Part shown: positions 4,217 through 59,435 of the stretch, piece by piece
Position numbering within the stretch: the stretch's first letter is position 1
Layout: each line of letters begins with the position of its first letter
Position numbers and translations under genes: made by a program
Notes under the pieces: model-generated
The model's input: the letters and a program-made list of their open reading frames with translations, nothing else
What the model was told of the DNA's origin: nothing
Database searches by the model: none
NCBI GenBank assembly: GCA_037833965.1
Contig: AP031357.1
Span: 4,236,001-4,300,000, forward strand
Origin: Marchantia polymorpha subsp. ruderalis
Taxonomy: Eukaryota > Streptophyta > Marchantiopsida > Marchantiales > Marchantiaceae
Length of the DNA: 64,000 nt
Direction: 5' to 3'

Positions 4217-6369
4217 ACGCTACGCGCCTGCACGGAACCACGCTACACTACACTCCGCAGAACCTGTGCTTCGTCTTCTGCGCGACGGACTGCCGCGCAC
4301 TAACTCTCTACCCTGCCAATCTTCAGCTCGACTGCGCAGTCCCAAACGCCGCAACACCGCGGAAACCTCTGTCTCAAGGGTAGCCATGGTGTCCTGCGCC
4401 TTCGACAGAAAAGAGTCCAGCTTCTTCGCCACTCGCCGCCGACTCCGACTGTCACCCGCCAACAACCCGGCTGCACGAAGCTCTAACTCACGCAGTGTGA
4501 GTTTCTCAAACGCCGCCACTTCCTAGTGGGCGTAACACCTGAGGCAGTGGGTGACTCGCCTCGCCATCTCTTCCTTCGTGGGATCTGCCTCTCGCCGGCG
4601 ATCGTCTTCAATTACTACCAACTGCGATTCGGCCTCCGCACGCTGTGCTCTCAATTCTCCGCACTCGGATTGCAGCCTGCGGATTAATTCCTCATCCGCC
4701 TGTCGTGCGAGCTGACACTGCACTAACAACCGCGTCTGTCGCACGATCTCCTCTGAAAAAATTCGATTCTAAGCCTGCTCTGAATCCAGTGCTTCCGTGA
4801 GCTTCACCTTCTCCTTGGCGAGCTCTTCCAGTCTCCCATCCTTCACCTTGTCGAAGTGTTTGTACAATTTTTGATTGAGGTTGTACTGACCCCACAAGCA
4901 TTCATGCTTCTCCCGCAGATCCTTAAGTTCCCGGTCCACCCGGGCTAGCAACTTGCTGGTGTGGATTTTAGTGCGAGTTTGCCTGCGCACTAACTCGACG
5001 TAGGACCCAGGCTGGCGAGGATCCGCGTATTTCTCCATCTTGCGATCCAAGTACCTCAGCAGAGGTACTACCTGCTCACAGAGCGCCGCCGCCGGTGCTC
5101 CAATTAATTCCTCCTCCTCGTCCTCGGTGGATCCCGATCCCGACACTGATTCCGTGGACCCTCCTTCTTCATCATCCTCCGATTGGAGGATTTCGGTCGC
5201 CATTGATTGCGTCGACAACTGGCCTAAGTCGGGCTGCGAGATGTCTGCGTGTTCTGCCGCCGATGGCGCTCCTGCAGCCTCGCTGCTCCCTGCTAAAATG
5301 TCCAAGGCGGTGGGTGAATGCGGCCGTGCCACATCCCCATCGTCCGCCTGTCGTGCCGCGACTGTAACTTCTTCGCCGCCGGCGTCTACCGCCGAAGGCG
5401 ACCAGGCGGAATGCACCTGCGCGGGGTGTAATTGTGCATCGCGCGCACAAATTTCATCCTGCGGACAGACAATCCGCTCCTCCGTTAGGTCCCGCTCCAC
5501 CGATCGGTCCTGCGCGAGAAATGCGTCCGGCCTACGCGTAGACGCAATTCCCGGCGCCTCATCCGCCGAAGGCGGGAGAGCCGAAGGCGGCCGGCCCGAT
5601 GTCCCTTGGCCCGAAGGCCCTTCCGCCGAAAGCGCAGCTTCCGCCGGCTCTCTGGTTGTAACTCGCTGGCTCGAAGGCCCTGGCGCCGAAGCCGCAAATC
5701 CCGGCGCTCTTTCCGCCGGAGGGCCTTGTCCCGAAGGCCCTTGAGCCAAAGGCGGATCTTCCGCAGGCTCCTTCCCCTTCCTGCGTTGTACCGGGGGTGA
5801 GTCCTGCCTATGCGTAGGCGGCCGCCTATGCGTAGGCAAACTTTCTCTGCCTATGCGTAGGCACAAATCCACGTCCGCAAGGGGTCGCCTATCCACAGGG
5901 AGTCGCCTATGCGTAGGCGGCACACTCATCTGCGCCGCACGTGGTAGCTCCTGACCCGAAGGCCGTCTCTCTTCCGCCGAAGGCGTAGTGTGGTCTAGTG
6001 CCCCTTCGACCGTCCGCGTAGTCCCATCCTTCTCCGGGGACGGACTTCCTTTCTCTGTGGCGATCGTCGCCGTTTCCGCGCTGCTGGTCGGTAACAAAAG
6101 CCTGCGCGCCTTCTGCTTCGGCCGGCTGCAGACTTCGTGCAGTGGCCGCTTCCGAGTGAGAGCAGCTGATTCTTGATGTCGCTCCTTCTCCGGTTCCTCT
6201 CTCCATCTTCGTTTCTGCGGCACTCGCGCTGCGGGTGTGTCTCTCCCCGCATCCTGTTGAGTCGGCGGAGTGGAAGTCGGCGAATCCTCCGCGTCGGTGT
6301 CTACCTCGTTATCCCGCACATACCTCCCGGGATGGTCGACTGACAATGGTGGAAATCGAGCACGCTCGG
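4217..6369 (-). pseudogene. LTR-encoded coiled-coil protein, C-terminal two thirds (LTR #1)
   Basis: On the minus strand this encodes, from 6369 down, the end of the N-terminal domain (around FPPLSVDHPG), the Pro/Arg-rich linker with repeated THRR motifs, an acidic patch, and the coiled coil with the GSAECSVAWFRAGA tail. The frame is broken by stops near 4770 and 4520-4522. The apparent Met start at 6382 is an artefact of the inserted LTR end at 6370. The linker contains several near-palindromic CCTATGCGTAGG units. The N-terminus continues at 9089-9785. Confidence 0.75.
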
Positions 6370-15546: not shown

Positions 15547-16148
15547 CATAGTGCAGTGTAGTGCTAGTTAGGCCTTAGAAGGTATAAAGTAGTTCAAGGC
15601 GTCTTGCCTTGGGATTTTTCCAGTTTCGGAAGTGCAGATCAAGAACTCATTTTCTCTGCGTGTTTGTGTCCTTAGTTCTGTCACCACGCACGAGGAGCTA
15701 CACCTTAGCAATCCGCATTGTGTAGCTGAAGGCCTTCGGCCGAATGTTCAGAGCTAGTACATTGGTTAGAGACTTGAGTAGTTCGGATCTACACCTGCGG
15801 GTGATTGCCGATGCTCAGAGCCAATGACGAGTTAGATACTTGAACAGTTTCCCCCTTACACCTTTGAGTGATTGTTTCTGATTGTACTCCTTCGGGATTT
15901 TTCCCCTAAATGCCAAAGTGAAGTTTTGCTACTTCGTGTAAGCCTTGGTTGTAAATTCAGGTTACGTTGCAGCAGGTGCCTTCAGGGTAACCCCTGTAGT
16001 ATTTCTGGGAATGACAAGTGCCTAAGAATTCAAACTCTTCAATAGACTATTATGGTGTGTTACTGGAACGTTTCTCAGTGAGTCCTTCCGTGCGGAGCTG
16101 TGTTCTCTGCGCGTTTTGTGAGTTGAGAGTGTTGTTCACCGCGTATGA

Positions 16149-16170
16149 AAAAGAAGTTGTCGGCTTCTTA
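16149..16170 (-). other. 22-nt LTR-PBS spacer stub of LTR #3
   Basis: Immediately outside the 3' end of minus LTR #3 lie 22 nt equivalent to the spacer found between LTR and PBS at 47359-47380 and 59353-59374. The stub stops exactly where the PBS (TGGCGCC...) would begin, and LTR #2 sequence resumes. It shows that LTR #3 was the 5' LTR of a fuller element, later truncated at the PBS boundary. Confidence 0.75.
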
Positions 16171-17182
16171 TGTAATAACCCACTAAAGGCTAAAACTGCA
16201 ATATAGTGGTAGAAAGGTCGAACCCACAGGGACAGAGGAACACACAGGGTACAAAGTGTCACGTTTTAACAGACTATTGAGGAGTTTGAATTCTCAGGCA
16301 ACTGTCACTCCCAGAAATACTGCAAGTGTCCACTCGGAGCGCACTCGGAGGTCGCACAGTGCAGCGTAACACACACACACACACACACACCTGAAACTAC
16401 AGAAACACAACCCAGAGATCCGTTAGGACCTCTACTCAAGATTTCAGGGGGGGAAAGTCTCTCGCGAGCACACTCGGCGAAGCTGCGGGTAGTGACTTCC
16501 AACTCCGGCTTTTACAACACTTCCACTAGCTTGCTGCTAGTGTAGGAAACCCGGTTTGGACTGCCTACTTCGGATCGAAGTCACTCATACGCGGTGAACA
16601 ACACTCTCAACTCACAAAACGCGTAGAGACACAGGTCCGCACTGAAGGACTCACTGAGAAACATTCCAGTAACACAACAACAGTCTATTGAAGAGTTTGA
16701 ATTCTCAGGCACTTGTCATTCCCAGAAATACTACAGGGGTTACCCTCAAAGCACCTGCTGCAGCGTAACCTGAATTTACAACCAAGGCTTACACGAGGTA
16801 GCAAAACTTCACTTTGGCATTCAGGGGAAAAATCCCAAAGGAGTACAATCAGAAAGAAACACTCGAGGGTGTAGGGGCGAAACTGTTCAAGTATCTAACT
16901 AGTCACTGGCTCTGAGCATCGGCAGTCACCCGCAGGTGCAGATCCGAACTACTCAAGTCTCTAACCAATGTACTAGCTCTGAACATTCGGCCGAAGGCCT
17001 TCAGCTACAAAATGCGGAACGCTAAGTTGTAACTCCTTGTGCGTGGTGACAGAACTCAAGGACACAAACACGCAAAGGAAATGGGTTTCTGATCTGCACT
17101 TCTGATGGGAAAGAACCCCAGGCAAAACGCCTAGAACTATTTTATACCTTCTAAGTCCTACCTAGCACTACACTGCACTACG

Positions 17183-18577
17183 CTACACGCCTGCACGGAA
17201 CCACGCTACACTACACTCCGCGGAACCTGTACTACGTCTCCTGCGCGGCCGACTGCCGCGCACTAACTCCCTACCCTGCCAATCTTCCGCTCGACTGCGC
17301 AGTCCCAAACGCTGCAACGCCGCGGTCACCTCCACTTCGAGGGCGGACATGGTATCCTGTGCCTTCGACAGAAAGGCATCGAGCTTCTTTGCTACCTTCC
17401 GCCGACTCCTACTGTCGCCTGACAACAACCCGGCTGCGCGCAATTCAAACTCACGCAGTGTGAGTTTCTCCTGCGCCTTCACTTCCCAGTGGGCGTAGCC
17501 CTTGAGACAGTGGGCGACACGCCTCGCCGTCTCCACCTTCGTGCGATCCGCCTCCTTCCTGCGATCCTCTTCAATTATCACTAATTGCGATTCGGCTTCA
17601 GCACGTTGCGCTCTCAATTCGCCACACTCTGACTGTAACCTGCGGATTAACTCTTCATCCGCCTGCCGTGCGAGCTGACATTGTTCCAACAACCGCGTCT
17701 GTCGCACGAGCTCCTCTGACAAAATCCGATTCTGGGCCTGCTCAGAAATGAGTGCTTCCTTGACCTTCACTTGCTCCTTGGTGAGCTCGTCTAGTTTCTC
17801 ATCCTTCATCTTCTCGGAGTGCTTGTAGAATTTCTGATTAAGCTTATACTGACCCCACAAGCATGCATGCTTCTCCTTCAATTCCCTCAACTCCTGGTCC
17901 ACTCTAGCTAACAGCTTGCTGGTGTGGACTTTAGTGCGAGTCCGCCTGCGCACTAACTCGATGTAAGATCCCGGCTGGAGTGGGTCGGCGTATTTATCGA
18001 CCTTGCGATCCAAGTACCTCAGCAACGGAATCACCTGCTCAGAGAGCGCCGCCGCCGGCGCTCCAACAATTTCCTCGTCCTCCTCCTTGGTGTCTTCTGC
18101 TCCTGACATTTCTTCCGTGGAGCCTCCGTCGTCATCATCCGAGTGGAGAATTTCAGTCGCCATTGATTGCGTCGGCGACTGCCCTGAGTGGGGCTGCACG
18201 TCATTAACGTGTGCTGCCTGCGAAGGCACGGCTGCAGCCTCGCTGCTCGTCGCCAAAATGTCTAAGGCGGAAGGCGAATGTACCCGTGCGGCATCCCCGT
18301 CGTTCGCTTGTTGGTTGTCTACCGCGTCCTCTCTGCCGCCGTCGCCCGCTGCCGAAGGCGATCGAGCGGAGGGTGGCTGCGCGGGGTTTGATTGCGCATC
18401 GCGCATCGAAATTTCATCCCGCGGACAGTCACTCCGCTCCACCGTCTGTTGCTGCTCCCTTGATCGGTCCGTGGGGGCTGTGCCCGGCCCGTGCGCAAGC
18501 GCAATTGCCGGCGCCTTGTCCGCCGCAGGCGTAGCGCCGCGGACATCCATCGCCGAAGGCGACATGGCCGGGGGCCG
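17183..18577 (-). pseudogene. LTR #3 ORF, C-terminal half
   Basis: On the minus strand from 18577 down: the end of the Pro/Ala-rich linker (RPPAMSPSAMDVRG), an acidic patch, the EQVIPLLRYLDRK block, a long coiled coil and the SAECSVAWFRAGV tail, all open to the stop at 17183. It is nearly identical to LTR #4, suggesting that #3 and #4 are recent relatives. It is separated from its own N-terminal half (23963-25723) only by LTR #4. Confidence 0.8.
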
Positions 18578-19824
18578 TGTGGTACCCCACTTTTGGCAAT
18601 TTTGAGGAAATTAAAACATTTTTGGAAAACTGTACCCTGGCAGCATTGTAAATAGCCTTCGGTACATCAAAACAGAGTGAATCCGGAAGATCGCGGGGAT
18701 TCTCGAGGGATCTTGTAGAATCTGGGATTTGGGGTGCAGCAGTAAGGAGAGGCACCACCCTCCCTGCGAGCTCTGCAGTTAGGATCTCTACGGCGCAAGG
18801 CGCAAAACCCGCCTTCGGAGGTTGCGTCCGCGGCTGTAGGGAAACCCTCCATAGTTAGGTCAACCCTCGGGCGCCTTGACCAAGTTGGGATCCCGTTGGA
18901 AAGAGCTCAACGCACTGATTCCAACGAGCCCAAGAACGCTTGGAACGGATGAGGACTTAGGGAGTTATCGCTATTGGAAGAAACGGAGGCGGTCGCCTAC
19001 GGCGGAAGGAGTTCGCCACCGGCGCGAATTCCGCCTACGCGGAAGGGGGAATCAAGTTTTGTCCTATGCGCGGACGAAGGCGTTCGCCTGTGCACAGGCG
19101 AAGTAGGGTTAGGGAAGGCGCGAAGTCCGCCTACGCACAGGCGTTCGCCTGTGCACGGGCACTTCGGCGTCGGCGGAAAATCCGCCTTGGGCCCTAGAAA
19201 TGCGCCTTGTGAGGTAGAAAGTGTACGGCGCCTTCCGCGCCAGCGCAGCGCCGCGTACGACGGAAGAGCCGCCAGAGTAATCAAATCGGTACGGACCATG
19301 CGGACGGCACGGGTGGATGCGCTCTTGGACGGACGGAGTTGCGGCGGCGGAAGCGCCGACGGAGAGACAAGGAACGGACAGACTGGACGGAGACGGCTGA
19401 CCACGGTCAACGCCTTCCGCGCCAGCGCAGCGCCGCGGACGGAATGCGCCTGCGCACAGGCGAACGCCTGTGCACAGGAGGATGTTCAAGTTCCGCGCCG
19501 GCGGAGAATCCGCCGAGGCTCCTGCCTGCGCACAGGCAGGAGTTGAATTTTTGTCCGACATGCGGACACACGCGTCAAGGCAGAGGGGGATTGGCCGAGG
19601 GGCGGTACGAACAAGTGTACCGCGCAAGGCGGAAAACTCGCCTTCGGCGCTACGCCCCCATGTCCGCAGGGTAATACGCTCGCGGAGTTCAAATCCGCCA
19701 ATTCGAGCGTGAGAGTTTAATCGACGACGGCGGAGCGTGAAGCCGCGCGTGAGAGCGAAGACCGTTCCAGCGTACAGCCGGCGCGGCCATCAAGTGAGAC
19801 GTTCTTCACGACCAAGAGCCGACC

Positions 19825-22800
19825 ATGACCTTCGACCGGGCGGCGGAGAACGTCCCATTCTTGAATTCGCGATTCCAATCTCTTGTGCGCGCTGCGCGCA
19901 TCCATCTGCTGGCTGCGGAACACTCTCGACGTCGTCGCACAAGAGATTTCTTGTTGATTGAGGGAGAAGTGAGTGCGCGTGATTTGGAATTGAGGGCGAT
20001 TAGAGTTTGCCGAGAGAGAAAGAAACCCGGGCGGTGCGGAAGTAGAATGAGCGGGCGAGCGAACCCCAGGAACGCAATGACGAGACCGAGCAGATTGCGG
20101 ATGGTGCCACTTCGCCTACCGCAGAACGGGCTGCGCGCTTTTGAGGAGCGCTTAATAGCAAGAAAGCTCGATTTCTTGCTATGGGGATGGAATTACATCT
20201 GTGCGAATATGGTGCGCGAGTGGCTAGAGCCACAGGGACCACCCTCGCGCGGATTGCGTCCGCATGTTGACCGGTGGACAGTCCAAGATTGGGCGCAGGC
20301 GTTGGGAAGATGTGCTGGCATGCCTGGGCATCTCCTTTTCGACAGTGAGAGCATCAAGGTGACCAAGCAAGAAGAGGCGCAATTTGTGGAGCTGTTCAAA
20401 ACCGGGAGGTCTACCAAGAATGGGTACAGGACCCGTGATTACAAGGATCGATTTCGCCGGACTTTGTCCGCGGCGCTGATGCAATTACTGCAGCCGCACC
20501 GCGCCTGCTACATCACATTGTGGCAGGTCTCTTTTGTGGAGTGCGTCACCGAGGGAACTCCAATTCACTGGGCGAGCATCCTGCACAGGGTGATGCGACA
20601 GCACGCGTTTGAGGAAAAGGGGGGAACTCTAAACCATCTTTCTCCTTTCCTCATCAATTTTTATCGACAGCGAAATTGTTTGACAGCGGCGGAGCTTGAA
20701 CATTTTCCGCCATTGTGCATCGACCATCCCGGGAAGTATGTGCGGGAGAACAAGGTCGACACTGATGCAGAGGAGTCACCGACTTCTACCCCATCAAGAC
20801 GGAGGGACGAAGGGAGACACACTCCTGCAGCGCGAGTGCCGCGGAAGCGGCGATGGAGGGAAGAGTCTGAAGAGGAGCAGCATCAAGAACCCTCTGCTCC
20901 CATTCGACCGCGGCCGCTGTGCGAGCCATACAGCCGGCCGAAGCAGAAGGCACGCAGACTGGTGTTACCAGCTGACAGTGCGGACACGGCGACAATTGCG
21001 ACGGAGCAAGGAAGTGCGTCGCCAGAGAGGCATGAGGAAGCGCGGACGACCGCAGGAGCGACGGGCCACGCTGCAACCTCGACGGGAGAAAGGCCGCCTA
21101 CGGGCCAAGGGCCTCCGGAGTTACCACATGCGATGCGGACAGATGTTCCGTTTGCGCATAGACGAGCCTCCGCGGATGGACGAGCCTCCGCGGACCGGCG
21201 AACACAAGTGGACGTGGATCTACGCTTACGCGTGGGAAGGAGCAGTCCGCCTGTGCACAGGTCGCCTGTGCACAGGACACCTCCACAAGTGCCGCCTGTG
21301 CACAGGCAAGAATCACCCCCGTTCCAACGGAGGAAGGGGAAGGAGCCGGCGGAAGAACCGCCTACGAGACACCGGCCCTCGGGGCCAGACCCTTCGGCGC
21401 ACCACGCGCCGCAATTTGCGCCTTCGGCGCCAGGGCCTTCGAGCCGAGGAGATACGAGCAGAGAGCGTGCGGAGGCCGCACCATCGGCGGGAAGTCCGCC
21501 GATAGATGCGCCTTCGGCGGTAGGGCCTATAGGCCAAGGAACATCGGGCGTGCGGCCCCCGGCCATGTCGCCTTCGGCGATAGATGTCCGCGGCGCTACG
21601 CCTGCGGCGGACAAGGCGCCGGCAAATGCGCCTGCGCACGGGCCGGGCACAGCCCCCACGGACCGATCAAGGGAGCCGCAGACGATGGAGCGGAGTGACT
21701 GTCCGCGGGATGAATTCTCGATACGCGATGCGCAATCCAACCCCGCGCAGCCACCCTCCGCTCAATCGCCTTCGGCGACGGACGTCGGCGGCAGAGAGGA
21801 TGCGGTAAACAATCAACAAGCGAGAGACGGGGATGCCGCACGGGTACATTCGCCTTCCGCCTTAGACATTTTGGCGACGAGCAGCGAGGCTGCAGCCGTG
21901 CCTTCGCAGGCAGCACACGTCGACGACGTGCAGCTCCACTCGGGGCAGTCGCCGACGCAATCAATGGCGACTGAAATTCTCCACTCGGATAATGACGACG
22001 GAGGCTCCACCGAAGAAATGTTAGGAGCAGAAGACACCGAGGAGGAGGAGGAGGAAATTGTTGGAGCGCCGGCGGCGGCGCTCTCTGAGCAGGTGATTCC
22101 GTTGCTGCGGTACTTGGATCGCAAGGTCGATAAATACGCCGACCCACTCCAGCCGGGATCTTACATCGAGTTAGTGCGCAGGCGGACTCGCACTAAAGTC
22201 CACACCAGCAAGCTATTAGCTAGAGTGGACCAGGAGTTGAGGGACTTGAAGGAGAAGCATGCGTGCTTGTGGGGTCAGTACAAGCTTAATCAGAAATTCT
22301 ACAAGCACACCGAGAAGATGAAGGATGAAAAACTGGGCGAGCTCACCAAGGAGCAGGTGAAGGTCAAGGAAGCACTCATTTCTGAGCAGGCCCAGAATCG
22401 GATTTTGTCAGAGGAACTCGTGCGACAGACGCGGTTGTTGGAACAATGTCAGCTCGCACGGCAGGCGGATGAAGAGTTAATCCGCAGGTTACAGTCAGAG
22501 TGTGGCGAATTGAGAGCGCAACGTGCTGAAGCCGAATCGCAATTAGTGATAATTGAAGAGGATCGTAGGAAGGAGGCGGATCGCGCGAAGGTGGAGACGG
22601 CGAGGCGAGTCGCCCACTGTCTCAAGGGCTACGCCCACTGGGAAGTGAAGGCGCAGGAGAAACTCACACTGCGTGAGTTTGAATTGCGCGCAGCCGGGTT
22701 GTTGTCAGGCGACAGTAGGAGTCGGCGGAAGGTAGCGAAGAAGCTCGATGCCTTTCTGTCGAAGGCACAGGATACCATGTCCGCCCTCGAAGGGGAGGTG

Positions 22801-22944
22801 TCTGCGGCGTTGCAGAGGTTGGGACTGCGCAGTCGAGCGGAAGATTGGCAGGGTAGAGAGTTAGTGCGCGGCAGTCGGCCGCGCAGGAGACGTAGTACAG
22901 GTTCCGCGGAGTGTAGTGTAGCGTGGTTCCGTGCAGGCGTGTAG
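19825..22944 (+). CDS. LTR-encoded coiled-coil protein, A type, intact (1039 aa)
   Basis: The only fully open copy of the A-type LTR gene. The start ATG at 19825 sits in ACCATGACC and is shared by several copies; an internal Met at residue 85 aligns with the start of the B protein. Order: basic N-terminus (1-84); conserved domain (about 85-300; FLLWGWN, LGRCAG, TRDYKDRFRR, GGTLNHLSPFLI); disordered Pro/Arg/Ala linker (about 300-735) with repeated PVHR motifs; acidic run (near 739); LLRYLDRK block (near 750); coiled coil (about 796-1000); Arg-rich end and SAECSVAWFRAGV. There is no signal peptide, membrane segment, zinc finger or enzyme motif. It lies in U3, 37 bp before the TATA box. The N-terminal domain distantly recalls domains annotated as putative plant transposon protein, but I cannot confirm this. 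Function unknown; DNA or RNA binding and self-association are guesses from charge and coiled coil. Confidence 0.88.
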   Translation: MTFDRAAENVPFLNSRFQSLVRAARIHLLAAEHSRRRRTRDFLLIEGEVSARDLELRAIRVCRERKKPGRCGSRMSGRANPRNAMTRPSRLRMVPLRLPQNGLRAFEERLIARKLDFLLWGWNYICANMVREWLEPQGPPSRGLRPHVDRWTVQDWAQALGRCAGMPGHLLFDSESIKVTKQEEAQFVELFKTGRSTKNGYRTRDYKDRFRRTLSAALMQLLQPHRACYITLWQVSFVECVTEGTPIHWASILHRVMRQHAFEEKGGTLNHLSPFLINFYRQRNCLTAAELEHFPPLCIDHPGKYVRENKVDTDAEESPTSTPSRRRDEGRHTPAARVPRKRRWREESEEEQHQEPSAPIRPRPLCEPYSRPKQKARRLVLPADSADTATIATEQGSASPERHEEARTTAGATGHAATSTGERPPTGQGPPELPHAMRTDVPFAHRRASADGRASADRRTQVDVDLRLRVGRSSPPVHRSPVHRTPPQVPPVHRQESPPFQRRKGKEPAEEPPTRHRPSGPDPSAHHAPQFAPSAPGPSSRGDTSRERAEAAPSAGSPPIDAPSAVGPIGQGTSGVRPPAMSPSAIDVRGATPAADKAPANAPAHGPGTAPTDRSREPQTMERSDCPRDEFSIRDAQSNPAQPPSAQSPSATDVGGREDAVNNQQARDGDAARVHSPSALDILATSSEAAAVPSQAAHVDDVQLHSGQSPTQSMATEILHSDNDDGGSTEEMLGAEDTEEEEEEIVGAPAAALSEQVIPLLRYLDRKVDKYADPLQPGSYIELVRRRTRTKVHTSKLLARVDQELRDLKEKHACLWGQYKLNQKFYKHTEKMKDEKLGELTKEQVKVKEALISEQAQNRILSEELVRQTRLLEQCQLARQADEELIRRLQSECGELRAQRAEAESQLVIIEEDRRKEADRAKVETARRVAHCLKGYAHWEVKAQEKLTLREFELRAAGLLSGDSRSRRKVAKKLDAFLSKAQDTMSALEGEVSAALQRLGLRSRAEDWQGRELVRGSRPRRRRSTGSAECSVAWFRAGV

Positions 22945-22980
22945 CGTAGTGCAGTGTAGTGTTAGGTAAGATTTAGAAGG

Positions 22981-22988
22981 TATAAAAT
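22981..22988 (+). promoter_or_regulatory. TATA box of solo LTR #4
   Basis: TATAAAAT lies 37 bp after the ORF stop. A 6-bp inverted repeat with a 5-nt loop follows at 22993-23009 (CTAGGC/GCCTGG). Transcription would be expected to start near 23006-23016, leaving the ORF upstream, in U3. A separate promoter or a transcript from a 5' copy would be needed to express the ORF. Confidence 0.7.
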
Positions 22989-23962
22989 AGTTCTAGGCGT
23001 TTTGCCTGGGGTTCTTTCCCATCAGAAGTGCAGATCAGGAACCCATTTCCTTTGCGTGTTTGTGTCCTTGAGTTCTGTCACCACGCACGAGGAGTTACAA
23101 CTTAGCGTTCCGCATTTTGTAGCTGAAGGCCTTCGGCCGAATGTTCAGAGCTAGTCCATTGGTTAGAGACTTGAGTAGTTCGGATCTGCACCTTCGGGTG
23201 ACTGCCGATGCTTAGAGCCAGTGACTAGTTAGATACTTGAACAATTTCGCCCCTACACCTTCGAGTGTTTCTTTCTGATTGTACTCCTTGGGATTTTTCC
23301 CCTGAATGCCAAAGTGAAGTTTTGCTACTTCGTGTAAGCCTTGGTTGTAAATTCAGGTTACGCTGCAGCAGGTGCCTTGAGGGTAACCCCTGTAGTATTT
23401 CTGGGAATGACAAGTGCCTGAGAATTCAAACTCTTCAATAGACTGTTGTTGTGTTACTGGAATGTTTCTCAGTGAGTCCTTCAGTGCGGACCTGTGTTCT
23501 CTGCGCGTTTTGTGAGTTGAGAGTGTTGTTCACCGCGTCTGAGTGACTTCGATCCGAAGTAGGTAGTCCAAACCGGGTTTCCTACACTAGCAGCAAGCTA
23601 GTGGAAGCGTTGTAAAAGCCGGAGTTGGGAGTCACTGCCCGCAGCTTTGCCGAGTGTGCTCGTGAGAGACTTTCCCCCTGAAATCTTGAAGTAGAGGTCC
23701 TAACGGATCTCTGGGTTGTGTTTCTGTAGTTTCAGGTGTGTGTGTGTGTGTGTGTGTGTTACGCTGCACTGTGCGACCTCCGAGTGCGCTCCGAGTGGAC
23801 ACTTGCAGTATTTCTGGGAGTGACAGTCGCCTGAGAATTCAAACTCCTCAATAGTCTGTTAAAACGTGACACTTTGTACCCTGTGTGTTCCTCTGTCCCT
23901 GTGGGTTCGACCTTTCTACCACTATATTGCAGTTTTAGCCTTTAGTGGGTTATTACAGGCCG

Positions 23963-25723
23963 CTCGCCCGATGTCCCTTGGCCTATAGGCCCTACCGCCG
24001 AAGGCGCATCTATCGGCGGACTTCCCGCCGATGGTGCGGCCTCCGCACGCTCCCTGCTCGTATCTCCTCGGCTCGAAGGCCCTGGCGCCGAAGGCGCAAA
24101 TTGCGGCGCGTGGTGCGCCGGAGGGTCTGGCCCCGAGGGCCGGTGTCTCGTAGGCGGTTCTTCCGCCGGCTCCTTCCCCTTCCTACGTTGGAACGGGGGT
24201 GATTCTTGCCTGTGCACAGGCGGCACGTGTGGAGGTGTCCTGTGCACAGGCGACCTGTGCACAGGCGACCTGTGCACAGGTGAGCGCCTGTGCACAGGCG
24301 GACTGCTCCTTCCCACGCGTAAGCGTAGATCCACGTCCACTTGTGTTCGCCGGTCCGCGGAGGCTCGTCCGTCCGCGGAGGCTCGTCTGTGCGCAAACGG
24401 AACATCTGTCCGCATCGCACGTGGTAACTCCGGAGGCCCTTGGCCCGTAGGCGGCCTCTCTCCCGTCGAGGTTGCAGCGTGGCCCGTTGCTCCTGCGGTC
24501 GTCCGCGCTTCCTCATGCTTCTCTGGCGACGCACTTCCTTTCTCCGTCGCAATCGTCGCCGTGTCCGCACTGTCGGCTGGTAACACCAGTCTGCGTGCCT
24601 TCTGCTTCGGCCGGCTGTATGGCTCGCACAGCGGCCGCGGTCGAATGGGAGCAGAGGGTTCTTGATGCTGCTCCTCTTCAGACTCTTCCCTCCATCGCCG
24701 CTTCCGCGGCACTCGTGCTGCAGGAGTGTGTCTCCCTTCGTCCCTCCGCCTTGATGGGGTAGAAGTCGGTGACTCCTCTGCATCAGTGTTGACCTCATTC
24801 TCCCGCACATACTTCCCGGGATGGTCGATGGACAATGGCGGAAAATGTTCAAGCTCCGCCGCTGTCAAACAATTCCGCTGTCGATAAAAATTGATGAGGA
24901 AAGGAGAAAGATGGTTTAGAGTTCCCCCCTTCTCCTCAAACGCGTGCTGTCGCATTACCCTGTGCAGGATGCTCGCCCAGTGAATTGGAGTTCCCTCGAT
25001 GACGCACTCCACAAAAGAGACCTGCCACAATGTGATGTAGCAGGCGCGGTGCGGCTGCAGTAATTGCATCAGCGCCGCGGACAAAGTCCGGCGAAATCGA
25101 TCCTTGTAATCACGGGTCCTGTACCCATTCTTGGTAGACCTCCCGGTCTTGAACAGCTCCACGAATTGCGCCTCTTCCTACTTGGTCACCTTGATGCTCT
25201 CACTGTCGAAAAGGAGATGCCCTAGCATGCCAGCACATCTTCCCAACGCCTGCGCCCAATCTTGGACTGTCCACCGATCAACATGCGGACGCAATCCGCG
25301 CGAGGGTGGTCCCTGTGGCTCTAGCCACTCGCGCACCATATTCGCACAGATGTAGTTCCATCCCCATAGCAAGAAATCGAGCTTTCTTGCTATTAAGCGC
25401 TCCTCGAAAGCGCGCAGCCCGTTCTGTGGTAGGCGAAGTGGCACCATCCGCAATCTGCTCGGTCTCGTCATTGCGTTCCTGGGGTTCGCCCGCCCGCTCA
25501 TTCTACTTCCGCACCGCCCGATCTTCCTTCTCTCTCGACAAACTCTAATCGCCCTCAATTCCAATTCACGCGCATTCACTTCTCCCTCAATCAACAAGAA
25601 ATCTCCTGTGCGACGACGTCGAGAATGTTTAGCAGCCAGCAGATGGATGCGCGCAGCGCGCACAAGAGATTGGAATCGCGAATTCAAGAATGGGACATTC
25701 TCCGCCGCCCGGTCGAAGGTCAT
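23963..25723 (-). pseudogene. LTR #3 ORF, N-terminal half
   Basis: On the minus strand from ATG 25723 (MTFDRAAENV...): basic N-terminus, conserved domain, and the linker with an expanded run of SPVHR repeats, up to the LTR #4 insertion at 23962. A TAG at 25178-25180 interrupts the conserved domain after SIKVTK. Downstream it reads on in frame. The PVHR run (24208-24302) has more CCTGTGCACAGG units than LTR #4, so the array varies in copy number. Confidence 0.8.
24208..24302 (-). repeat. Palindrome array encoding PVHR repeats
   Basis: Several copies of CCTGTGCACAGG, mostly as GCGACCTGTGCACAGG or CGCCTGTGCACAGGCG (a perfect 16-bp palindrome), lie head to tail inside the linker of the LTR #3 ORF. 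They translate as repeated SPVHR. LTR #4 has three units at the same place (about 21248-21306). The same palindromes also occur in the non-coding leader (for example 19080-19160, 19445-19545). Confidence 0.8.
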
Positions 25724-27379
25724 GGTCGGCTCTTGCTCGTGAAGAACGTCTCACTTGATGGCCGCGCCGGCTGTACGCTGGAACGGTCTTCGCTCTCACG
25801 CGCGGCTTCACGCTCCGCCGTCGTCGATTAAACTCTCACGCTCGGATTGGCGGATTTGAACTTCGCGAGCGTATTACCCCGCGGACATGGGGGCGTAGCG
25901 CCGAAGGCGAGTTTTCCGCCTTGCGCGGTACACTTGTTCGTACCGCCCCTCGGCCAATCCTCCTCTGCCTTGACGCGTGTGTCCGCATGTCGGACAAAAG
26001 TTCAACTCCTGCCTGTGCGCAGGCAGGAGCCTCGGCGGATGCTCCGCCGGCACGGGACTTCATCCTCCTGTGCACAGGCGGTCGCCTGTGCGCAGGCGAA
26101 TTCCGTGCGCGGCGCAGCGCTGGCGCGGAAGGCGTTGACCGTGGTCAGCCGTCTCCGTCCAGTCTGTCCGTTCCTTGTCTCTTCGTCGGCGCTTCCGCCG
26201 CCGCAACTCCGTCCGTCCAAGAGCGCATTCACCCGTTCCGTCCGCATGGTCCGTACCGATTTGATTACTCTGGCGGCTCTTCCGCCGTACGCGGCGCTGC
26301 GCTGGCGCGGAAGGCGCCGTACACTTTCTACCTCACAAGGCGCATTTCTAGGGCCCAAGGCGGATTTTCCGCCGACGCCGAAGCGCCTGTGCACAGGCGA
26401 GCGCCTGTGCGTAGGCGGACTTCGCGCCTCCCCTAACCCTACTTCGCCTGTGCACAGGCGAACGCCTTCGCCCGCGCATAGGACAAAACTTGATTCCCCC
26501 TTCCGCGTAGGCGGAATTCGCGCCGGTGGCGAACTCCTTCCGCCGTAGGCGACCGCCTCCGTTTCTTCCAATAGTGATAACTCCCTAAGTCCTCATCCGT
26601 TCCAAGCGTTCTTGGACTCGTTGGAATCAGTGCGTCGAGCTCTTTCCAACGGGACCCTAACTTGGTCAAGGCGCCCGAGGGTTGACCTAATTATGGAGGG
26701 TTTCCCTACAGCCGCGGACGCAACCTCCGAAGGCGGGTTTTGCGCCTTGCGTCGTAGGGGTCCTAACTGCAGAGCTCGCAGGGAGGGTGGTGCCTGTCCT
26801 TACTGCTGCACCCCAAATCCTAGATTCTACAAGATCCCTCGAGAATCCCCGCGATCTTCCGGATTCACTCCGTTTTGATGTACCGAAGGCTATTTACAAT
26901 GCTGCCAGGGTACAGTTTTCCAAAAATGTTTTAATTTCCTCAAAATTGCCAAAAGTGGGGTACCACAGTGACTTTGATCCGAAGTAGGAAGTCCAACCCG
27001 GGTTCCCTACGCTAGCAGAAAGCTAGTGGGAGGGTTGTAAAAGCCGGAGTTGGGAGTCACTACCCGCAGCTTCGATGAGTGCTCGCGAGAGACTTTCCCC
27101 CTGAAATCTTGAGTAGAGGTCCTAACCGATCTCTGGGTTGTGTTTTTGTAGTTTCAGGTGTGTGTGTGTGTGTTGAGTGAATTACTCTGCACTGTGCGAC
27201 CTCCGAGTGAGCTCCGAGTGAACACTTGCAGTAAATCTGGGAGTGACAGTCGCCTGAGAATTCAAACTATTCAATAGTCTGTTAAATGTGACACTTTGTA
27301 CCCTGTGTGTTCCTCTTCCCCTGTGGGTTCGACCTTTCTACCACTATATTGCAGTTTTAGCCTTTAGTGGGTTATTACA

Positions 27380-32994: not shown

Positions 32995-35552
32995 TGTGGT
33001 ACCCCACTTTTGGTATTTTTGAGGAAATTAAAACATTTTTGGAAAACTGTACCGCGGCAGCAGTGTAAATAGCCTTCGGTGCATCAAAACAGAGTGAAAT
33101 TATAAGATCGAAGAGATTCTCGAGAGAACTTGTAGAATCCAGGAGTTGGGTGCGACGTCGGGGACGGACACCACCCTACATGCGGGCTCTCAAGGAATAA
33201 CCCCTTCGGCGCAAGGCGCAAAATGCGCCTTCGGCGCTAGAGGAATCCTTCAGAATTTGATCAATTCCCTAACGCCTTGACTTGCTTAGGGTCTTGTTGG
33301 AAAGAGCTCAACGCGCTGATTCTAACGAGCCCAAGAACGCCACGAACGGATGAGGACTCCGGGAGTTATGAAGGTCGCAAGATACTCAGCTTCTCGCCTA
33401 CGAGTAGGCGAGGAAAGTTTGTCCTATGCGCGGACGAAGGCAGTTCGCCTACGCGTAGGCGAAATAGGGTTTGACGTCGGCGCGATGTCCGCCGCGAATG
33501 TCGCCTACGCGTAGGCGAGGAAACCTCTGCCCAGGCGGACGAGCGAAGCCCGCCTACGCACAGGCGCTTCGGCGTCGGCGGGAAATCCGCCTTCGGCCTT
33601 AGAAATGCGCCTTCGGGGTTAGAAATAGTACGGCGCCTTCCGCGCCAGCGCAGCAGCGCGGACGGGCGAGGAACCACCGGAGTAGTAAAATCCGTACGGA
33701 CCGTACGGACTGTACGGACGGAACGGATGGATGCGCCTTCGGTCGGACGGAGTTACGGCGGCGAGAGCGCCGACGGAGAGACAAGAAATGGACAGACTGG
33801 ACGGAGCCTGTTGACCGCGGTCAACGCCTTCGGCGCCAGCGCAGCAGCGCGGACACGGCGACGATCGTCACGGAGAAGGGAAGTGCGTCGCCGGAGAGGA
33901 TCGAGAGAGCGCGGACGTCCGCAGGAGCGGCGGACCACGCTACACCTCCGACGGACGAGAGGCGGCCTTCGGGCCAAGGGCCTCCGGAGTTACCACGTGC
34001 GATGCGGACGAGTGTTCCGCCTACGCACAGGCGAATTTCAGCGGAAAGGCGTCCTCAAGCGGACGTGGACCTCTGCCTACGCGTAGGCAGAGAAAGTTCG
34101 CCTACGCACAGGCGGCCGCCTACGAATAGGCAGGAGTCACCCCCGATACAACATAGGAAGGGGAAGGAACCGGCGGAAGATCCGCCTTCGGGTCAAGGGC
34201 CTTCGGGACGAGACCCTCCGGCGTATAACGCGCCGCGATTTGCGCCTTCGGGTCAACGAGTTTTGAGCAGGGAGCGTGCGGAGACCGCACCTTCGGCGGG
34301 TAATCCGCCGGCAGATGCGCCTTCGGCGGTAGGGCCTTCGGGGCCAAGTACATGTGGTAACACACTTTTTGTTTTTTTTGCAGAATTTAAACAATTTTAG
34401 AAAACTAGTACCGAAGCAGTGTTTGTAGTTAGAAAAGGGTACGTTAAATAGAGTGGATTGAGGAGATCGTCACAAGGTCATTAAGGATCGCGTAGTCGGA
34501 TGTACCAACGCCAATGTCTTCGGCGCCTTCGGCAAAAGCTCCTTTTCTGAGGCGTCTCTACTCACGCGCTTCCAGCGGTTAAGGAAGCTACGCTTCCGGC
34601 GCAGACACCTCAGGAGGAGGTTTTGCTAAAGACGTCAGAAGAAGGGCCCGGACCTCTGAAGGCGTCCGACCATGAGTGCGCCTTCGGCGATGCGCCGCTA
34701 GCGCGGAAAGGGAAAACCTTCATAACGATCGGAATACACGGTAGATCCAGTTGGTTGAAGTCGCATTAGAAAGAGCTCGGGACGCTCGTTCTAACGAGCC
34801 CAAGAGCGTCGGAGATGGATCAGGGACGGAGAAGTTATGAGTGTCGGCGAACTCGTAGCCGGACATGCGCCGTTCGCGCTAGACTTCACAGCCGGAAAGG
34901 ACTCTCGTACGCTCTCGGCGATGCGCCTTTGGCGGAATCGCGCGCTCATGGGAGGAAACCAACTCAGAGTCGGAAGCGCCTTTGGCGGCTGCTCATGGAA
35001 GGAAAGCGCCGGTCGGATGTACGCCTCCGACGTGGCGCTGATGGCCGGATGCGCTGGCATGATTTGCGCTGGCATGGAGTCCATGGAATGACGTCCATTG
35101 CCGTCAGCAATGGACGAGGCATAAAGGACAAAATAAGCGGTACGAATACGCGCCGGCGTAATTCGCGCCGTGTGAGCCTAAACTCCCCACCCTTCAGCGT
35201 TTGTAGTCCAGGTGGGGGTTCGAGCTCCCATAATCTAACTTCTCTGATCTCAACCATGTGGTCAATGTGTATTCAAGACAATGAGATCATGAACACTTGC
35301 TCTCTCACAGACAAATTATCCAGAACTAAAAATAATAACTTGCTGTCTGCTATCTCCACAAGAGCAGCAGACAAGCTCTTTGTTACATAAAGATCTAACC
35401 CAACTCTGGGTAACTTTCTCAATACCACAGCCGCTGTGGTCTATCCTAGCTCCGAGTTCCACTACCAATTCCTACTCAGATTCCACTCTCCCTTTTCAGT
35501 TTCAAATTCAGATCCCGACTGTCAGATTTCGGTCTCAGATTTCGCTTCACTC

Positions 35553-35655
35553 TCAGCTCCCACTCACAGATTACACTTCAATCTCAGATCCCACTCACAG
35601 ATTACACTTCAATCTCAGCTCCCACTCATAGATTACACTTCAATCTCAGATCCCG
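35553..35655. repeat. 31-bp tandem repeat in C LTR
   Basis: Three 31-bp units, starting at 35553, 35584 and 35615, each contain CCCACTCA(C/T)AGATTACACT, with a partial fourth at 35646. They are not a multiple of three and no ORF is convincing here. Confidence 0.8.
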
Positions 35656-36164
35656 ATCTAATTTCACACTCAGATACAACTCTCCACCCACGAGAGTTTG
35701 CTTCCTCTTCCTTCGAACTCTCCACACTCTATCCTCCTACCGATCCCACCCGCGTCTCCGCACAATGGCACACCACGCGATCCAGCTCGCGCACACTGGT
35801 ACACTGGTACACTACAAGCTCTCCGCCCCAAGGCCGAACTCCCCACCAGGTCTCAGCTTCCAGGCCGAACACACCACAGCCCGCCTGAATGCCCCACCCG
35901 CAATGATGGATCACACCTACTTCCCATGCGCGACTTTATGCCCCGCCGTCTCTGCCACACCAACTTGACTTCACGCCGCCGCCACTGCCACACCTGAACA
36001 TTCTACATTCATGACCACCCGATCCTCGCCGGAGGAAATCTCCTTCCGCGCACCGCCGAATGCGTCCAACCGCCAAAGACGCACTTCCACACCTTGTCAA
36101 TCTCTAACGGTCACCCCGACGCCCATAACTCACGGATCCCTGCTTCGTTTGCAACGTTCTTGGG

Positions 36165-37139
36165 CTCGTTGGAACGAGCGTGTTGTGCTCTTTCCAACGA
36201 GCCCCTAACCAAGTCAAACGGATAAGAATTGAGAAAGTTATCACTGTTTTACTCTTCCGCCGAAGGCCTGCAACCGCCGAAGGCGTCCGTCCGCGCATCG
36301 GACAAAAGTTGAACTCTCTACCTCCGAAGGCGGAATTCCCGGAAGCGTAACCCCGAAGGCGAACATCTAGGGCCGAAGGCGGATTTTCCAAAAGTCATAA
36401 CTCCCTAAATTCCCATCCGTTCCAGGAGTTCTTGGGCTCGTTGGAACGAGCGTCGCGAGCTCTTTCCAACGAGACCCTAATCACCGCAAACCATTAAAAA
36501 TTGAAAACACTATGTCGATTTTACCCTTCCGCCGAAGGCCTGCCTGTGCACAGGCTGCCTACTTGCAACCCGCCTGTGCACAGGCCGTCCGCCTGTGCAC
36601 AGTGTCCGTCCGTCGAGGCTCGCCCGTCCGTCGAGGCTCGTCCGCCTCTTCCGCCGAAGGCCTGCCTGTGCACAGGCCGCCTACTTGCAACCCACCTGTG
36701 CACAGGCGTCCGCGTCGTCAGCCGTCCGCGTCGTCAGCCGCCCCTCTAACTGTTAACGCCGAAGGCCCCTCTAAATGTTAGCGCCGAAGGCCCTCCATAT
36801 CAGAAACTTCCGCCGCTCCTAACTCGGTGATGCCTCATCCGTTTCAAGAGATCTTGGTCTCGTTGGAACCAGCTCGTCGAGTTCTTTCCAACGAGACCCG
36901 AATCAAGTCAAACCGCTAAGAATTGAGAAAGTTATGAGCGTCCGCGTCCGTGCGCAGGTGTCCGTCCGTCGAGGCTCGTCCGCCCTGCGAGGCTCGCCCG
37001 TCCGTCGAGGCTCGCCCGTGCACAGGCCGAAGGCCCCTCTATATCAGAAACTTCCGCCACTCATAACTCAGTGACCTCTCATCCGTTTCACAAGTTCTTG
37101 GGCTCGTTGGAACGAGCGTCGCAAGGTCTTTCCAACGAG
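36165..37139. repeat. Four 37-bp inverted-repeat modules in C LTR
   Basis: Each module is CTCGTTGGAA, 17 nt, TTCCAACGAG. The four lie at 36165-36201, 36437-36473, 36858-36894 and 37103-37139. All arms are perfect and every spacer is exactly 17 nt, while spacer sequence varies. The surroundings repeat too (TTCTTGGG before, ACCCTAA or ACCCGAA after three of the four; GAAAGTTATGAG or similar further out). This is the clearest set of the module. Confidence 0.85.
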
Positions 37140-37982
37140 ACCCTAACTGAGTTGAGGCGTCACACATTGAAAACGTTATGAGAGTTTCACTCCTTCGCCG
37201 AAGGCCTTTCCCCGAAGGGATTTCACCGAAGGCACTTCGCCGAAGACCTTGCCCCGAAGGCCTCCTTCCGCACCTCTTGCCCCGTAACCATCACACCAAC
37301 TCCTAATCTTGCAGAAACTTTCACAAAACCCCAAGCATAATGTTGCAAGAGCTTAAATCCAAACTTTTAACTCTCATAAGGGTAAAAAGACATGTGAGCA
37401 CAGTTTTTGTGCTCACACGCCGACTGGATGTGCGCCTCCAGCAAGGCGCCGACGGATAAGGAACACGCCAGCGGCGACGTGCCTCCGGTGATGGACGGGT
37501 TAGGGAAAGACAACATAGCCGACGTATACCCTACGGCGGACTCGAGTCCGGAAGACGGCGGCGGCGGGAGAATTCAACATTCACGCATGCGAATGCGCGC
37601 AGTGCGGAGACGTGAATTCGCGCATGCAAAGGGCGAACCGTTAGGCCGTATAGCCGGCTGCGTACGTTGTAACCAGTAAGAACGTTGGACGTTCTTGAAA
37701 TCGGAGAAGAAAAGACTGCGCCCCAGTCTCATTCTCTCATTCTTGATTTTGCGAGTTCAAGCTTCCAAGATTACGCGCAAGGGCGGAGAGACCTGCAGTG
37801 AGAGGAGAGAGTGCGGAGACGAGTTACGCAAGGATCTTGACAGACCTTGGAGAGAATTGCGAGTAGCGAACTTGAGCGTGAGCGAAGAGAGAGTGAGCAG
37901 TCAGTGCTTGAGCGGCCGACGCGCAGTGGCGATTGTGAGAGAGCGAGCGAAAAGGAGAACGTTTGTGTGTGCAGGTAACGCA

Positions 37983-40538
37983 ATGTCGAAGGTTCCCCAG
38001 CTGCGAGTGTCTCCCCTAAGGGTGCCGCAGATCGGTCTACGCGCATTTCAAGATGTGCTGCTGGGGCTGAAGCTCGATTTCCTCCTGTGGGGGTGGAACT
38101 GGACATGTCCGGAGATGGTGCGCGAGTATCTGCAGGAGAGACACAAGCCCTCACGCGGATTCCGTCCACATCCAGAAAAATGGGACATTTGTAACTGGGC
38201 GCAGGTGTTGGGCAGGTGTGCCGGCGAGGAAGGGGATCTCCTCTTCGAGGCCGATAGCGTGAAGGTGTCCCAGGAGGAAGAAATCTCCTACAATGAGCTC
38301 TTCAAAGTTGCCAGGCATCCCAAGAACGGTTTCCGGACACGGGATTACAAAGATCGATTGCGGAGAAATGTCGCGACTGCATTGCTGCAGATATTGCAGC
38401 CGACCAAGACCGCTTACATGCATGATTGGCAGGTAGAATTTGTGGAGCTAGTGTTGTCAGGAGCTCCAGTGCATTGGGCACGACTCCTGTGGAAGGTAAC
38501 GCGCCAACATGCGCAAGAAGAGAAAGGAGGAACCCTCAATCATCTTTCGCCTTACTTGATTGTGTTTTATCGGGCGATGGGATGTTTGACAAATTCAGAG
38601 CGGACACGGTTTCCGCTGCTGACACGGAGCTATCCAGGTAGATACTCACGGGAGGCCGAAGTAGACACGGATCCGGACGAGGAACCTGCCAGTCCGCCTC
38701 CGGGTCCGGCCCCAGCAAGAGCAGCAGAAGAACGTCAAAGTGAGCGCATTCCGCGAAAGCGGAAGTGGGATGAGAGACCTGAGGACAGGCAGCCGGAAGT
38801 GCCAGCTGCGCCGACTCGTGGTCGGCCCACCCACGAGCCTCACAGTCGACCAAAACAGAGGGCACGCAAAATGCCAACTAGTACTGAGGAGACCGGGCGT
38901 ACTCCGATCCGGCGGAATCCCACACAGGAGGAGATAATCGCGTAGATTCTAGGGAAGTCGACAAATACCTCTGCGCAGAAGGCACCAATGCCTTCGGAAG
39001 GAGATGGACGGACTGACAGTCGGCCGACTACGAGTCGGGCGACTGAAGGTCGACAAGCGGAAGGAAGGCCAACTGAGCGGCGCGTTGAACCGGACAGCCG
39101 GCCAGAAGTAGAAGAGAGTTTGGCTGACGAGCCAACAACCCTCAGAAAGTCGTCTTCGGCGGAAGGCACTTCTGGGAAAACGCCGCCAGCAAGTAGGCCA
39201 AGTGGAGTAAAGACACGCAGGATGTATCCGACTCCCAGTCGGACAACTGATAGTCGGCCGACTGCGAGTCGGTCAACAAAGAGTCGGCCGGATTCGCCGA
39301 CTGCGAGACGGACAGGGCCGGCGACCAGTGTGCGGCCGCCTTCGGCGGACGCACCTTCAGCGAAGACACCTTCCGCGCAGATTGCGCCGGAAGGGCAGGC
39401 AGCAGAAGCGGGCGGTGCAAAGGTGACAAGAGTCACTGCGGCGTCGACCCCTTCGGAGACCGAAGATCGAGCCGGAACAGGGGCTCAAGCAGTGGGATCC
39501 TTCACTGTCCTGGATATTTTAGCAGGCAGTGGTGTGGCAGTCGCAGCGGAAGCTGCTGCGCGCCACAGTTCCAGGGAGTCGCCAAGGGATTCAGTGGCGA
39601 TTGAAATCCTCGAAACTGAGGATGAGACGAGCTCGGAAGAGCAGGAAGCGGACTCTGTGCAGAAAACGCCAACAGGGGTGGTGTGCGAGCAGATAGTCCC
39701 TCTCCTGCGATATCTGGATCGCAAGACATCCAAGTACTCGGGTACTGGAAAACCGCAGTCTTATGTGGAGACTGTCAAGCGCAGGACGAGGAGCAAGGTG
39801 GCCACTTGGGCCTCTAGGTGCCAAGTATATGTGGAAAGGAACACCGCCCTCCGACAACACCTGGCGGTCACACAGAAGCTATACCAAGCCTTGCAGCAGC
39901 AGAGGGAGGATGCGGCGACGAAAAGTCAGGCGGAGGCCGAGCTAATGCGGGCAAAGATCTAGTCAGAATTGCAGGAAGAGCGGAGACAAAACCGCATCCT
40001 AGCAGCAGAGCTTGCGCGCCAGACGCGCGCCTTGGAAGAAAGTCAAAGAGCCCGCAAGGAGGATGAGGAGTTGTTGCGCAATTTGCAATCCGAGTGCTCG
40101 GATTTGCGGGCGCAGCGTGCGGAAGCGGAAATGCAGCTAGCAGAGGTGGAAGGCAGCTGCCGGGCGCGAGAAGAGTTGGCGACGCGGGTGACTCACTGTC
40201 TAAAAGGATACGCCCATTGGGAGATGGCAGCTCAAGAGAGGATCACACTCAAGGAGTTTGAGCTTCGGGCGGCGGCTTTGACGGAGGGTGACAGTCGGAG
40301 TCGGCGGCGAGTAGCGAGGAAATTAGAAACCTTCTTGTCGGGTGCGCGCGACACTATGGCGCACTTAGAGTCGGAAGTCACTGCAGCCCTCCGACGCCTG
40401 GGGTTGCGCAGCCGGTCGGAAGACTGGCAAGGTAGAGACAGCGAGCGGAGCTGTCCGGCGCGCAGGAGGCGCCGCACCGGATCCGCCGAGTGCAGTAGTA
40501 TAGTTTGGTTTCGCGCAGATGTTGCGAGTAGTAGATAG
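37983..40538 (+). pseudogene. B-type LTR-encoded coiled-coil protein, two stops (851 codons)
   Basis: One continuous frame from ATG 37983 (MSKVPQLRVS) to the TAG ending at 40538, interrupted only by TAG at 38943 (Gln position) and TAG at 39960 (Glu position). Domains: conserved N-terminal domain with WGWNWTCPEMV, LGRCAG, RTRDYKDRLRR and GGTLNHLSPYLI (about 1-210); Arg/Pro/Ser/Thr linker with repeated SRPT units; CEQIVPLLRYLDRK near 555; coiled coil; SAECSSIVWFRADV tail. Homologous in order and motifs to the A protein but with an unrelated linker sequence. Confidence 0.85.
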
Positions 40539-46351: not shown

Positions 46352-46380
46352 CAGTGTAGTGCTAGTTCGGATTTAGGAGG

Positions 46381-46388
46381 TATAAAAT
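46381..46388 (+). promoter_or_regulatory. TATA box of LTR #8
   Basis: TATAAAAT is followed by the CAAGGC-GTCTT-GCCTTG inverted repeat. It is the likely promoter for the gag-bearing element whose PBS lies at 47381. The ORF normally ending 37 bp upstream has been deleted here. Confidence 0.65.
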
Positions 46389-58395: not shown

Positions 58396-58427
58396 GATAG
58401 CGTAGTGTTAGTTAGGACCTTTGAGGG

Positions 58428-59392: not shown

Positions 59393-59435
59393 AAGTGCGT
59401 CAACACCAGAATACTTGAGCAGCAATGCGCGGTGA

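Follow-up and report, generated by a model that had tools for sequence, protein, structure and literature searches.

A 64-kb window of DNA from Marchantia polymorpha subsp. ruderalis (64,000 bp of contig AP031357.1; all coordinates are positions in this window) is a nest of long terminal repeat (LTR) retrotransposon pieces, among them a solo LTR, A, that contains a long open reading frame (ORF). We conclude that the pieces probably represent a Ty3/gypsy lineage of Marchantia with an accessory protein gene wholly in the U3 region of a long LTR. The gene or a homologue of it is found in the LTRs of at least two subfamilies, one copy being joined to a primer binding site (PBS), gag, protease and reverse transcriptase (RT), and an LTR type without the gene (D) also exists.

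Solo LTR A and its U3 gene

LTR A begins with TGTGGTAC, ends with TTATTACA and has GGCCG on each flank. It has the properties of a solo LTR, a TG...CA unit with a perfect 5-bp duplication and without an internal region. With one copy of the duplication removed, its flanks aligned end to end to an A-family LTR (606 columns, 95.4%), showing that A inserted as one unit. Its host is a second LTR of the same family, A2, which lies on the minus strand (26967 to 23958, then 18577 to 16171) and is 96-97% identical to A. The flanks and the empty-site alignment thus bear out the initial annotation, which had called 18578-23957 a solo LTR with TG/CA ends and a perfect 5-bp duplication. Within A, the ORF at 19825-22944 has 1039 open codons. 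Stop-free runs in the LTR reached 1048 codons, compared to a maximum of 385 when the 3-kb stretch 19978-22977 was shuffled 500 times (mononucleotide shuffles). A TATA-like box (TATAAAATAG) begins at 22981, 37 bp past the last base of the stop codon, as had been noted at the outset.

Does the LTR truly extend over the ORF? Perfect 5-bp duplications were found around three units, A, B and D, and the flanks of B (GTACA) and D (GGGTA) also join into related sequence. All three units begin with TGTGGTA, at 4.4 kb (A), ~6.2 kb (B, of which ~2.2 kb is a later insert) and 1.5 kb (D) upstream of their 1-kb ends. A further B-family LTR with an ORF homologue (52187-59352) precedes a PBS, gag and pol, and this ORF-bearing LTR is therefore the 5′ LTR of a gag-pol element. 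Taken together, the three duplication-flanked units and the ORF-bearing LTR adjoining PBS, gag, protease and RT show that the LTR includes the ORF, and the original claim of a protein gene wholly in U3, carried by a solo LTR, holds.

It is extremely improbable that no more than the last ~1 kb is LTR, which would make the ORF an internal extra one, located after pol and before the 3′ LTR. Known plant extra ORFs do lie in the internal region (PMC7264820; here and below, statements from cited papers refer to passages of their text), and two A-type 1-kb ends, 46352-47358 and 53765-54774, seem to stand alone. However, the end at 53765-54774 belongs to the 2.5-kb LTR D, flanked by a duplication of its own, and 46352 is a junction with B-family LTR sequence, which we read as a truncated LTR. 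A 1-kb LTR is contradicted by the positions of the TGTGGTA starts of A, B and D, far 5′ of the 1-kb ends, and by the ORF-bearing LTR that directly precedes a PBS. The initial annotation had itself raised this arrangement, which fails in the face of the three perfect duplications and the LTR next to PBS and gag.

The B-type element (59353-63975) has gag, protease, RT and RNase H in the order of Ty3/gypsy elements, and Ty3 was the best PDB match of its RT/RNase H piece. Its pol is cut at 63976 by the start of another A-type LTR, shortly before the window ends, and integrase is not in the window. The LTR 3′ end motif GGNTTATNACA occurs in 12 places, and at two of them (47358 and 59352) an identical 18-base PBS, TGGCGCCGCTGCCGGGGA, lies 22 bp further on. 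This PBS may be that for tRNA-Asp. Non-chromovirus plant gypsy elements are described as having a PBS complementary to a tRNA other than Met, for example tRNA-Asp, and LTRs of up to ~5 kb (PMC6317226).

Selection, start codon and copies of the gene

As judged from comparisons among its copies, the protein sequence has been under purifying selection. The ratio of nonsynonymous to synonymous substitution (dN/dS; simple Nei-Gojobori counts on BLAST alignments, with gapped and stop codons dropped and frameshifted pieces kept where codons align) was 0.06-0.24 for the N-terminal domain (aa 84-330) in 9 copies. For the C-terminal domain (746-1039) it was 0.08-0.22 in 7 of 8 copies when anchored on A, and 0.07-0.34 in 9 of 10 when anchored on B, with the remaining copy saturated in each case. 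Over these 27 rows the other two frames gave 0.72-6.52, and both were ≥1.0 in 23. The initial annotation had set its reading against a dN/dS near 1 across copies, and both conserved domains lie far below that value. Third-position excess was evident in two divergent comparisons (p 1.5e-8 and 5.4e-9) among 11 codon-position tests. Even between the close copies A and A2, differences at the first, second and third positions numbered 2, 3 and 12 in the N-terminal domain (p 0.0047) and 5, 2 and 14 in the C-terminal domain (p 0.0038), with dN/dS of 0.12 and 0.14, respectively. The five tests with p above 0.05 were four on residues 1-83 and one B comparison. This pattern of constraint resembles that of gag in the same window, which showed a third-position excess with synonymous sites saturated, and of a 59-codon protease piece (dN/dS 0.11). 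A chance ORF was also considered, and was ruled out by the codon-position tests and the shuffles.

The gene most likely starts at the ATG at 20077, giving a protein of 955 residues; the 1039-codon open frame of the initial annotation stands, its start at 19825 probably does not. Codons 1-83 were compared in five copies, of which the four divergent ones had no third-position excess (p 0.66-0.92) and the fifth was A2. In the divergent copies dN/dS over these residues was 0.57-0.74, similar to the other frames (0.43-0.75). The context AACGCAATG around the ATG is kept in 8 of 9 aligned copies, and Met at 20077 is the first residue of 26 of the 32 database proteins that reach this end. From the flat codon pattern, the conserved context and the database starts, we took the gene as 20077-22944.

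Remnants of the ORF were found in 16 places in the window (22 tblastn pieces, grouped manually), of which only that in LTR A is complete and without a stop. The remnant at 45130-42533 has just one stop across aa 57-1037, and the A2 ORF likewise has one. With tblastn (E 1e-5), the ORF found no match in LTR D, although the last 1 kb of D is 97.3% identical to that of A. The expectation that each solo LTR keeps the gene is contradicted both by D and by the single complete copy among the 16 places.

When did selection act? The data fit selection in active lineages; selection after insertion was not demonstrated by the A/A2 data. When the changes in the C half were polarised with copy b (minus strand, 4222-5574), the A branch had 9, 6 and 13 changes at the three codon positions and the A2 branch 3, 2 and 10, with 0, 3 and 4 unassigned, a weak third-position excess. 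The sag gene of mouse mammary tumour virus (MMTV), the majority of which is in U3, may serve as a warning precedent against reading selection on solo-LTR copies: solo LTRs made up 490 of the 527 sag contigs found, and dN/dS was 0.289 overall, but none of 25 orthologous Pteropus LTRs had a dN/dS significantly different from 1 (PMC4667437). We consider takeover of the U3 gene by the host, or selection of solo-LTR copies as genes of their own, quite unlikely. The intact gene in solo LTR A and the low A/A2 ratios in the two domains would suit it, but just one of the 16 places is intact, A2 is now split by A, dN/dS between A and A2 in the two pieces of the middle region is 0.21 and 0.71, the polarised changes are weak in third-position excess, and the changes between A and A2 may have arisen before insertion, an argument also made for sag (PMC4667437).

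Several results weigh against a constrained U3 gene as we describe it. Within the 64-kb window there is no complete two-LTR element, and pairing of LTRs was not seen, since the 3′ LTR of any complete element is absent from it. The other 15 remnant places hold fragments, split copies or copies with stops. The middle region is weakly constrained (dN/dS 0.21-0.71 in A comparisons and 0.38-0.48 when anchored on B), and residues 1-300 of the B ORF, which belong to this region, showed no third-position excess between the B 5′ LTR and the B solo LTR (p 0.5). As regards the start at 20077, dN/dS for codons 1-83 between A and A2 was 0.36, so that some upstream coding might persist in recent copies. Immediately before this ATG we found no splice acceptor common to the families; ...GTGTGTGCAG precedes it in the three B copies and the C copy, after a purine-rich stretch, and is absent in the five A-type copies. 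An acceptor at this position is at most a possibility. Function is read here from architecture: the ORF protein (P0001) matched no Pfam family, a PDB sequence search with it gave no match, and the AlphaFold2 model of the N-terminal domain was unusable (mean predicted local distance difference test, pLDDT, 40.7).

The protein, known systems and a possible role

The protein comprises two conserved domains separated by a low-complexity middle. The long helix predicted for the C-terminal domain is probably a coiled coil. The structure search that the initial annotation had recommended for this part gave nothing meaningful, the best match of its model among PDB folds having an E of 2.8. Seven more sequences, including a composite, had no Pfam match, and 10 family members together matched 14 families, each in one or two members. 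The best of these weak matches were Extensin_1 (E 1.9e-4, one member) and CENP-K (0.0018, two members), and we take them as low complexity or coiled coil. Matches were taken at E up to 10, with the HMMER filters dropping most above ~0.1.

Three protein database searches returned 4, 38 and 82 relatives and reached only Marchantia and contig proteins (the first two scored only the 7988 and 7989 candidates sharing most words). Hypothetical proteins of Marchantia polymorpha subsp. ruderalis made up 32 of the 38 and 63 of the 82, and the rest were contig proteins. One contig protein (P0014) is 98% identical to the N-terminal domain, and P0021, an AXG93 'hypothetical protein', reaches 95% identity across 174 residues of the C-terminal domain. 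Such Marchantia polymorpha AXG93 proteins (e.g. P0002, P0021 and P0028) are clear homologues deposited as hypothetical. In one Marchantia polymorpha model, P0082, an integrase-like stretch and the N-terminal domain are joined on one strand; the integrase assignment was by eye and from the UniRef name, Pfam giving nothing. P0082 could be what a gene caller would make from pol followed by a 3′ LTR, and we treat it as weak evidence.

From residue 85 on, the Kyte-Doolittle mean over 19-residue stretches peaks at 0.99, a low value for a membrane span, for which the usual cut-off is near 1.6. An env-like or movement protein is very unlikely. In plant elements the env-like place is close to that of this ORF, in sense and near the 3′ end of the genomic RNA (PMC7264820), but the hydrophobicity, the C-terminal part predicted as one long helix and the lack of a family match argue otherwise.

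How does the gene compare with known systems? By the definition of a U3-encoded gene, a coding region in the U3 of an LTR (PMC4667437), the ORF is one. It resembles MMTV sag in its U3 position and in being carried by a solo LTR. It differs from sag in its plant host, in lying entirely upstream of the LTR TATA box, in its long predicted C-terminal helix and in giving no hint of a superantigen; its protein, as judged by Pfam search, also lacks a family match. Several promoters have been described for sag (PMC4667437). The extra ORFs of Retand, RIRE2 and Grande (Transposase_28, gene23) are likewise accessory proteins of plant Ty3/gypsy elements with no assigned role, sometimes with SMC-like domains (PMC7264820, PMC11963269). 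They lie between pol and the 3′ LTR in antisense, as do the Transposase_28 ORFs of Retand elements (PMC11963269) in orientation, whereas the present ORF is in sense and inside U3, not in the internal region where plant extra ORFs (aORF/eORF) are placed. Ogre (plant mobile domain) and Athila (ORF-1), of the OTA group, are non-chromovirus plant gypsy elements with extra ORFs; the survey describing them sought and placed such ORFs relative to the polyprotein, and its passages place none in an LTR (PMC6317226). PF04195, PF10536 and PF03078 were not matched among the Pfam results of the 10 + 7 proteins (E up to 10), and a Transposase_28-like origin was rejected on this lack of support. In the literature searched (mainly openly accessible papers and passages of these), we found no plant element with a gene inside its LTR. 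On present comparisons, the gene is like sag in position and like the plant extra ORFs in general build, without the Pfam family of the latter.

What might the gene do for the element? The genomic RNA of an LTR element begins at R of the 5′ LTR and ends with R of the 3′ LTR, and in reverse transcription the U3 of the 5′ LTR is copied from the 3′ LTR. The U3 gene would be present once in the genomic RNA, near its 3′ end; the initial annotation had this end right and put the gene beside the 3′ LTR, whereas it would lie within it. As U3 is copied to the 5′ side, the gene would be present twice in each new insertion and once in each solo LTR. A TATA-like box lies just 3′ of the gene in both A and B, which would put the transcription start of the main LTR promoter beyond the gene; the mRNA of the gene would then come from spliced genomic RNA, from a promoter in the 1.5-kb U3 leader, or from outside. 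The protein would be made from such a subgenomic or U3-initiated RNA, and could act in trans, as an oligomeric accessory factor that aids replication or helps the element to evade silencing. D inserted with a perfect duplication, lacks an ORF match and shares the last 1 kb of A, so the gene is dispensable in cis. The simplest reading would be an accessory protein acting in trans, which might serve, for example, in replication, in nuclear entry or in escaping silencing.

That the ORF has no present role, and is a once-useful hitch-hiker carried since LTRs are copied, seems unlikely to us. Its two domains are constrained both within and between subfamilies, which such a passenger does not readily explain, even though D inserted without the ORF and 15 of the 16 places are incomplete or have stops. 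Solo LTRs that keep the gene when gag-pol is lost would be at least transient reserves of it. The proposal that the gene can survive loss of gag-pol holds for the DNA copy only. More speculatively, and with considerable doubt, the LTR might be a gene cassette, in which a solo-LTR copy supplies a trans-acting factor that helps ORF-less and gag-pol-bearing relatives to move, deletion of gag-pol raises the relative supply of the factor, and the family outlives its internal regions.

LTRs are described as ordinarily non-coding (PMC4667437), and a large constrained U3 gene without a Pfam match could escape surveys that seek extra ORFs relative to the polyprotein (PMC6317226), ending up among 'hypothetical proteins' like the Marchantia relatives. 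In this arrangement each element has two copies of the gene, and the gene is what remains after solo-LTR formation, a point of relevance to the ways in which selfish elements keep accessory genes safe. Since Marchantia is a genetic model, the role of the gene would be testable there if intact copies are held in it or in the species of the window.

Features and other elements of the window

The coordinates are collected in Table 1.

Table 1. Features of the U3 gene, its LTR and the neighbouring elements (window coordinates)
Feature	Position	Strand	Remarks
Solo LTR A (U3-R-U5)	18578-23957	+	5380 bp, TG...CA; duplication and empty-site alignment; nested in A2
Left target-site duplication GGCCG	18573-18577	.	
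Right target-site duplication GGCCG	23958-23962	.	
U3 leader, including codons 1-84 of the 1039-codon ORF, probably non-coding	18578-20076	+	Flat codon-position pattern in the four divergent copies among five compared
U3 gene, most likely start	20077-22944	+	955 aa + stop
Conserved N-terminal domain	20077-20814	+	No Pfam match; dN/dS 0.06-0.24; AlphaFold2 mean pLDDT 40.7, fold not reliably predicted
Low-complexity middle (PSA/PSGQ-like)	20815-22059	+	Partly palindromic DNA motifs; dN/dS 0.21-0.71
C-terminal domain	22060-22941	+	Predicted 165-residue helix; AlphaFold2 mean pLDDT 78.7
TATA-like box TATAAAATAG of LTR promoter	22981-22990	+	Pattern in 11 places, A- and B-type
R-U5 (approximate)	23010-23957	+	Start inferred from TATA box; homologous 1-kb ends
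Host LTR A2, 5′ part	23958-26967	-	A2 ORF split by insertion of A
Host LTR A2, 3′ part	16148-18577	-	3′ end continues for 22-23 nt after TTATTACA, as far as the PBS edge; duplication not seen
B-family solo LTR with ORF homologue	34353-41499	+	Two stops; duplication GTACA; own insert ~35171-37417
B-family LTR directly before PBS	52187-59352	+	Interrupted by LTR D; ORF homologue 56047-58380, one stop
LTR D	52275-54774	+	2500 bp; A-like last kilobase; no ORF match; duplication GGGTA
PBS TGGCGCCGCTGCCGGGGA	59375-59392	+	22 bp after LTR end; second copy 47381-47398
gag	59436-61547	+	Retrotrans_gag, CCHC zinc knuckles, Ty3 capsid-like
Aspartyl protease	61548-62243	+	
RT and RNase H	62244-63975	+	Two stops in frame; cut by A-type LTR start at 63976

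The spacer between the LTR 3′ end and the PBS is 22 bp in both PBS-bearing elements (47359-47380 and 59353-59374), beyond the 0-5 bp scanned in one plant survey (PMC6317226). The minus-strand end of A2 (16148-16170) extends 22-23 nt beyond TTATTACA, to the edge of a would-be PBS start, and a target duplication was not seen there. This looks like the integration of an unprocessed cDNA end, and suggests that integrase normally trims ~22 nt of U5-side sequence. In LTR D, matches of U3 to that of A were short in comparison with the closely matching last 1 kb, and U3 and R-U5 may be exchanged as modules.

Rfam at gathering thresholds gave no matches in the window. At 34353-46353, a large inverted repeat is formed by two tail-to-tail B-family LTRs with ~51 bp of A-like ORF sequence between them. 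The insert in LTR B (35171-37417) has inverted ends, GTGTGAGC...GCTCACAC, and is perhaps a DNA transposon. The LTR insertions at 18573-18577, 34348-34352 and ~41500-41550 cluster when mapped onto A coordinates (~21528-21586), in the palindrome-rich middle of the ORF, which could be due either to chance or to a preferred target. The palindromes GCCTTCGGC/GCCGAAGGC occur 72 times in the whole window, compared to ~1.2 expected from a second-order Markov model, and CCTGTGCACAGG occurs 17 times (~0 expected); their places include the U3 leaders and the low-complexity middle of the ORF.

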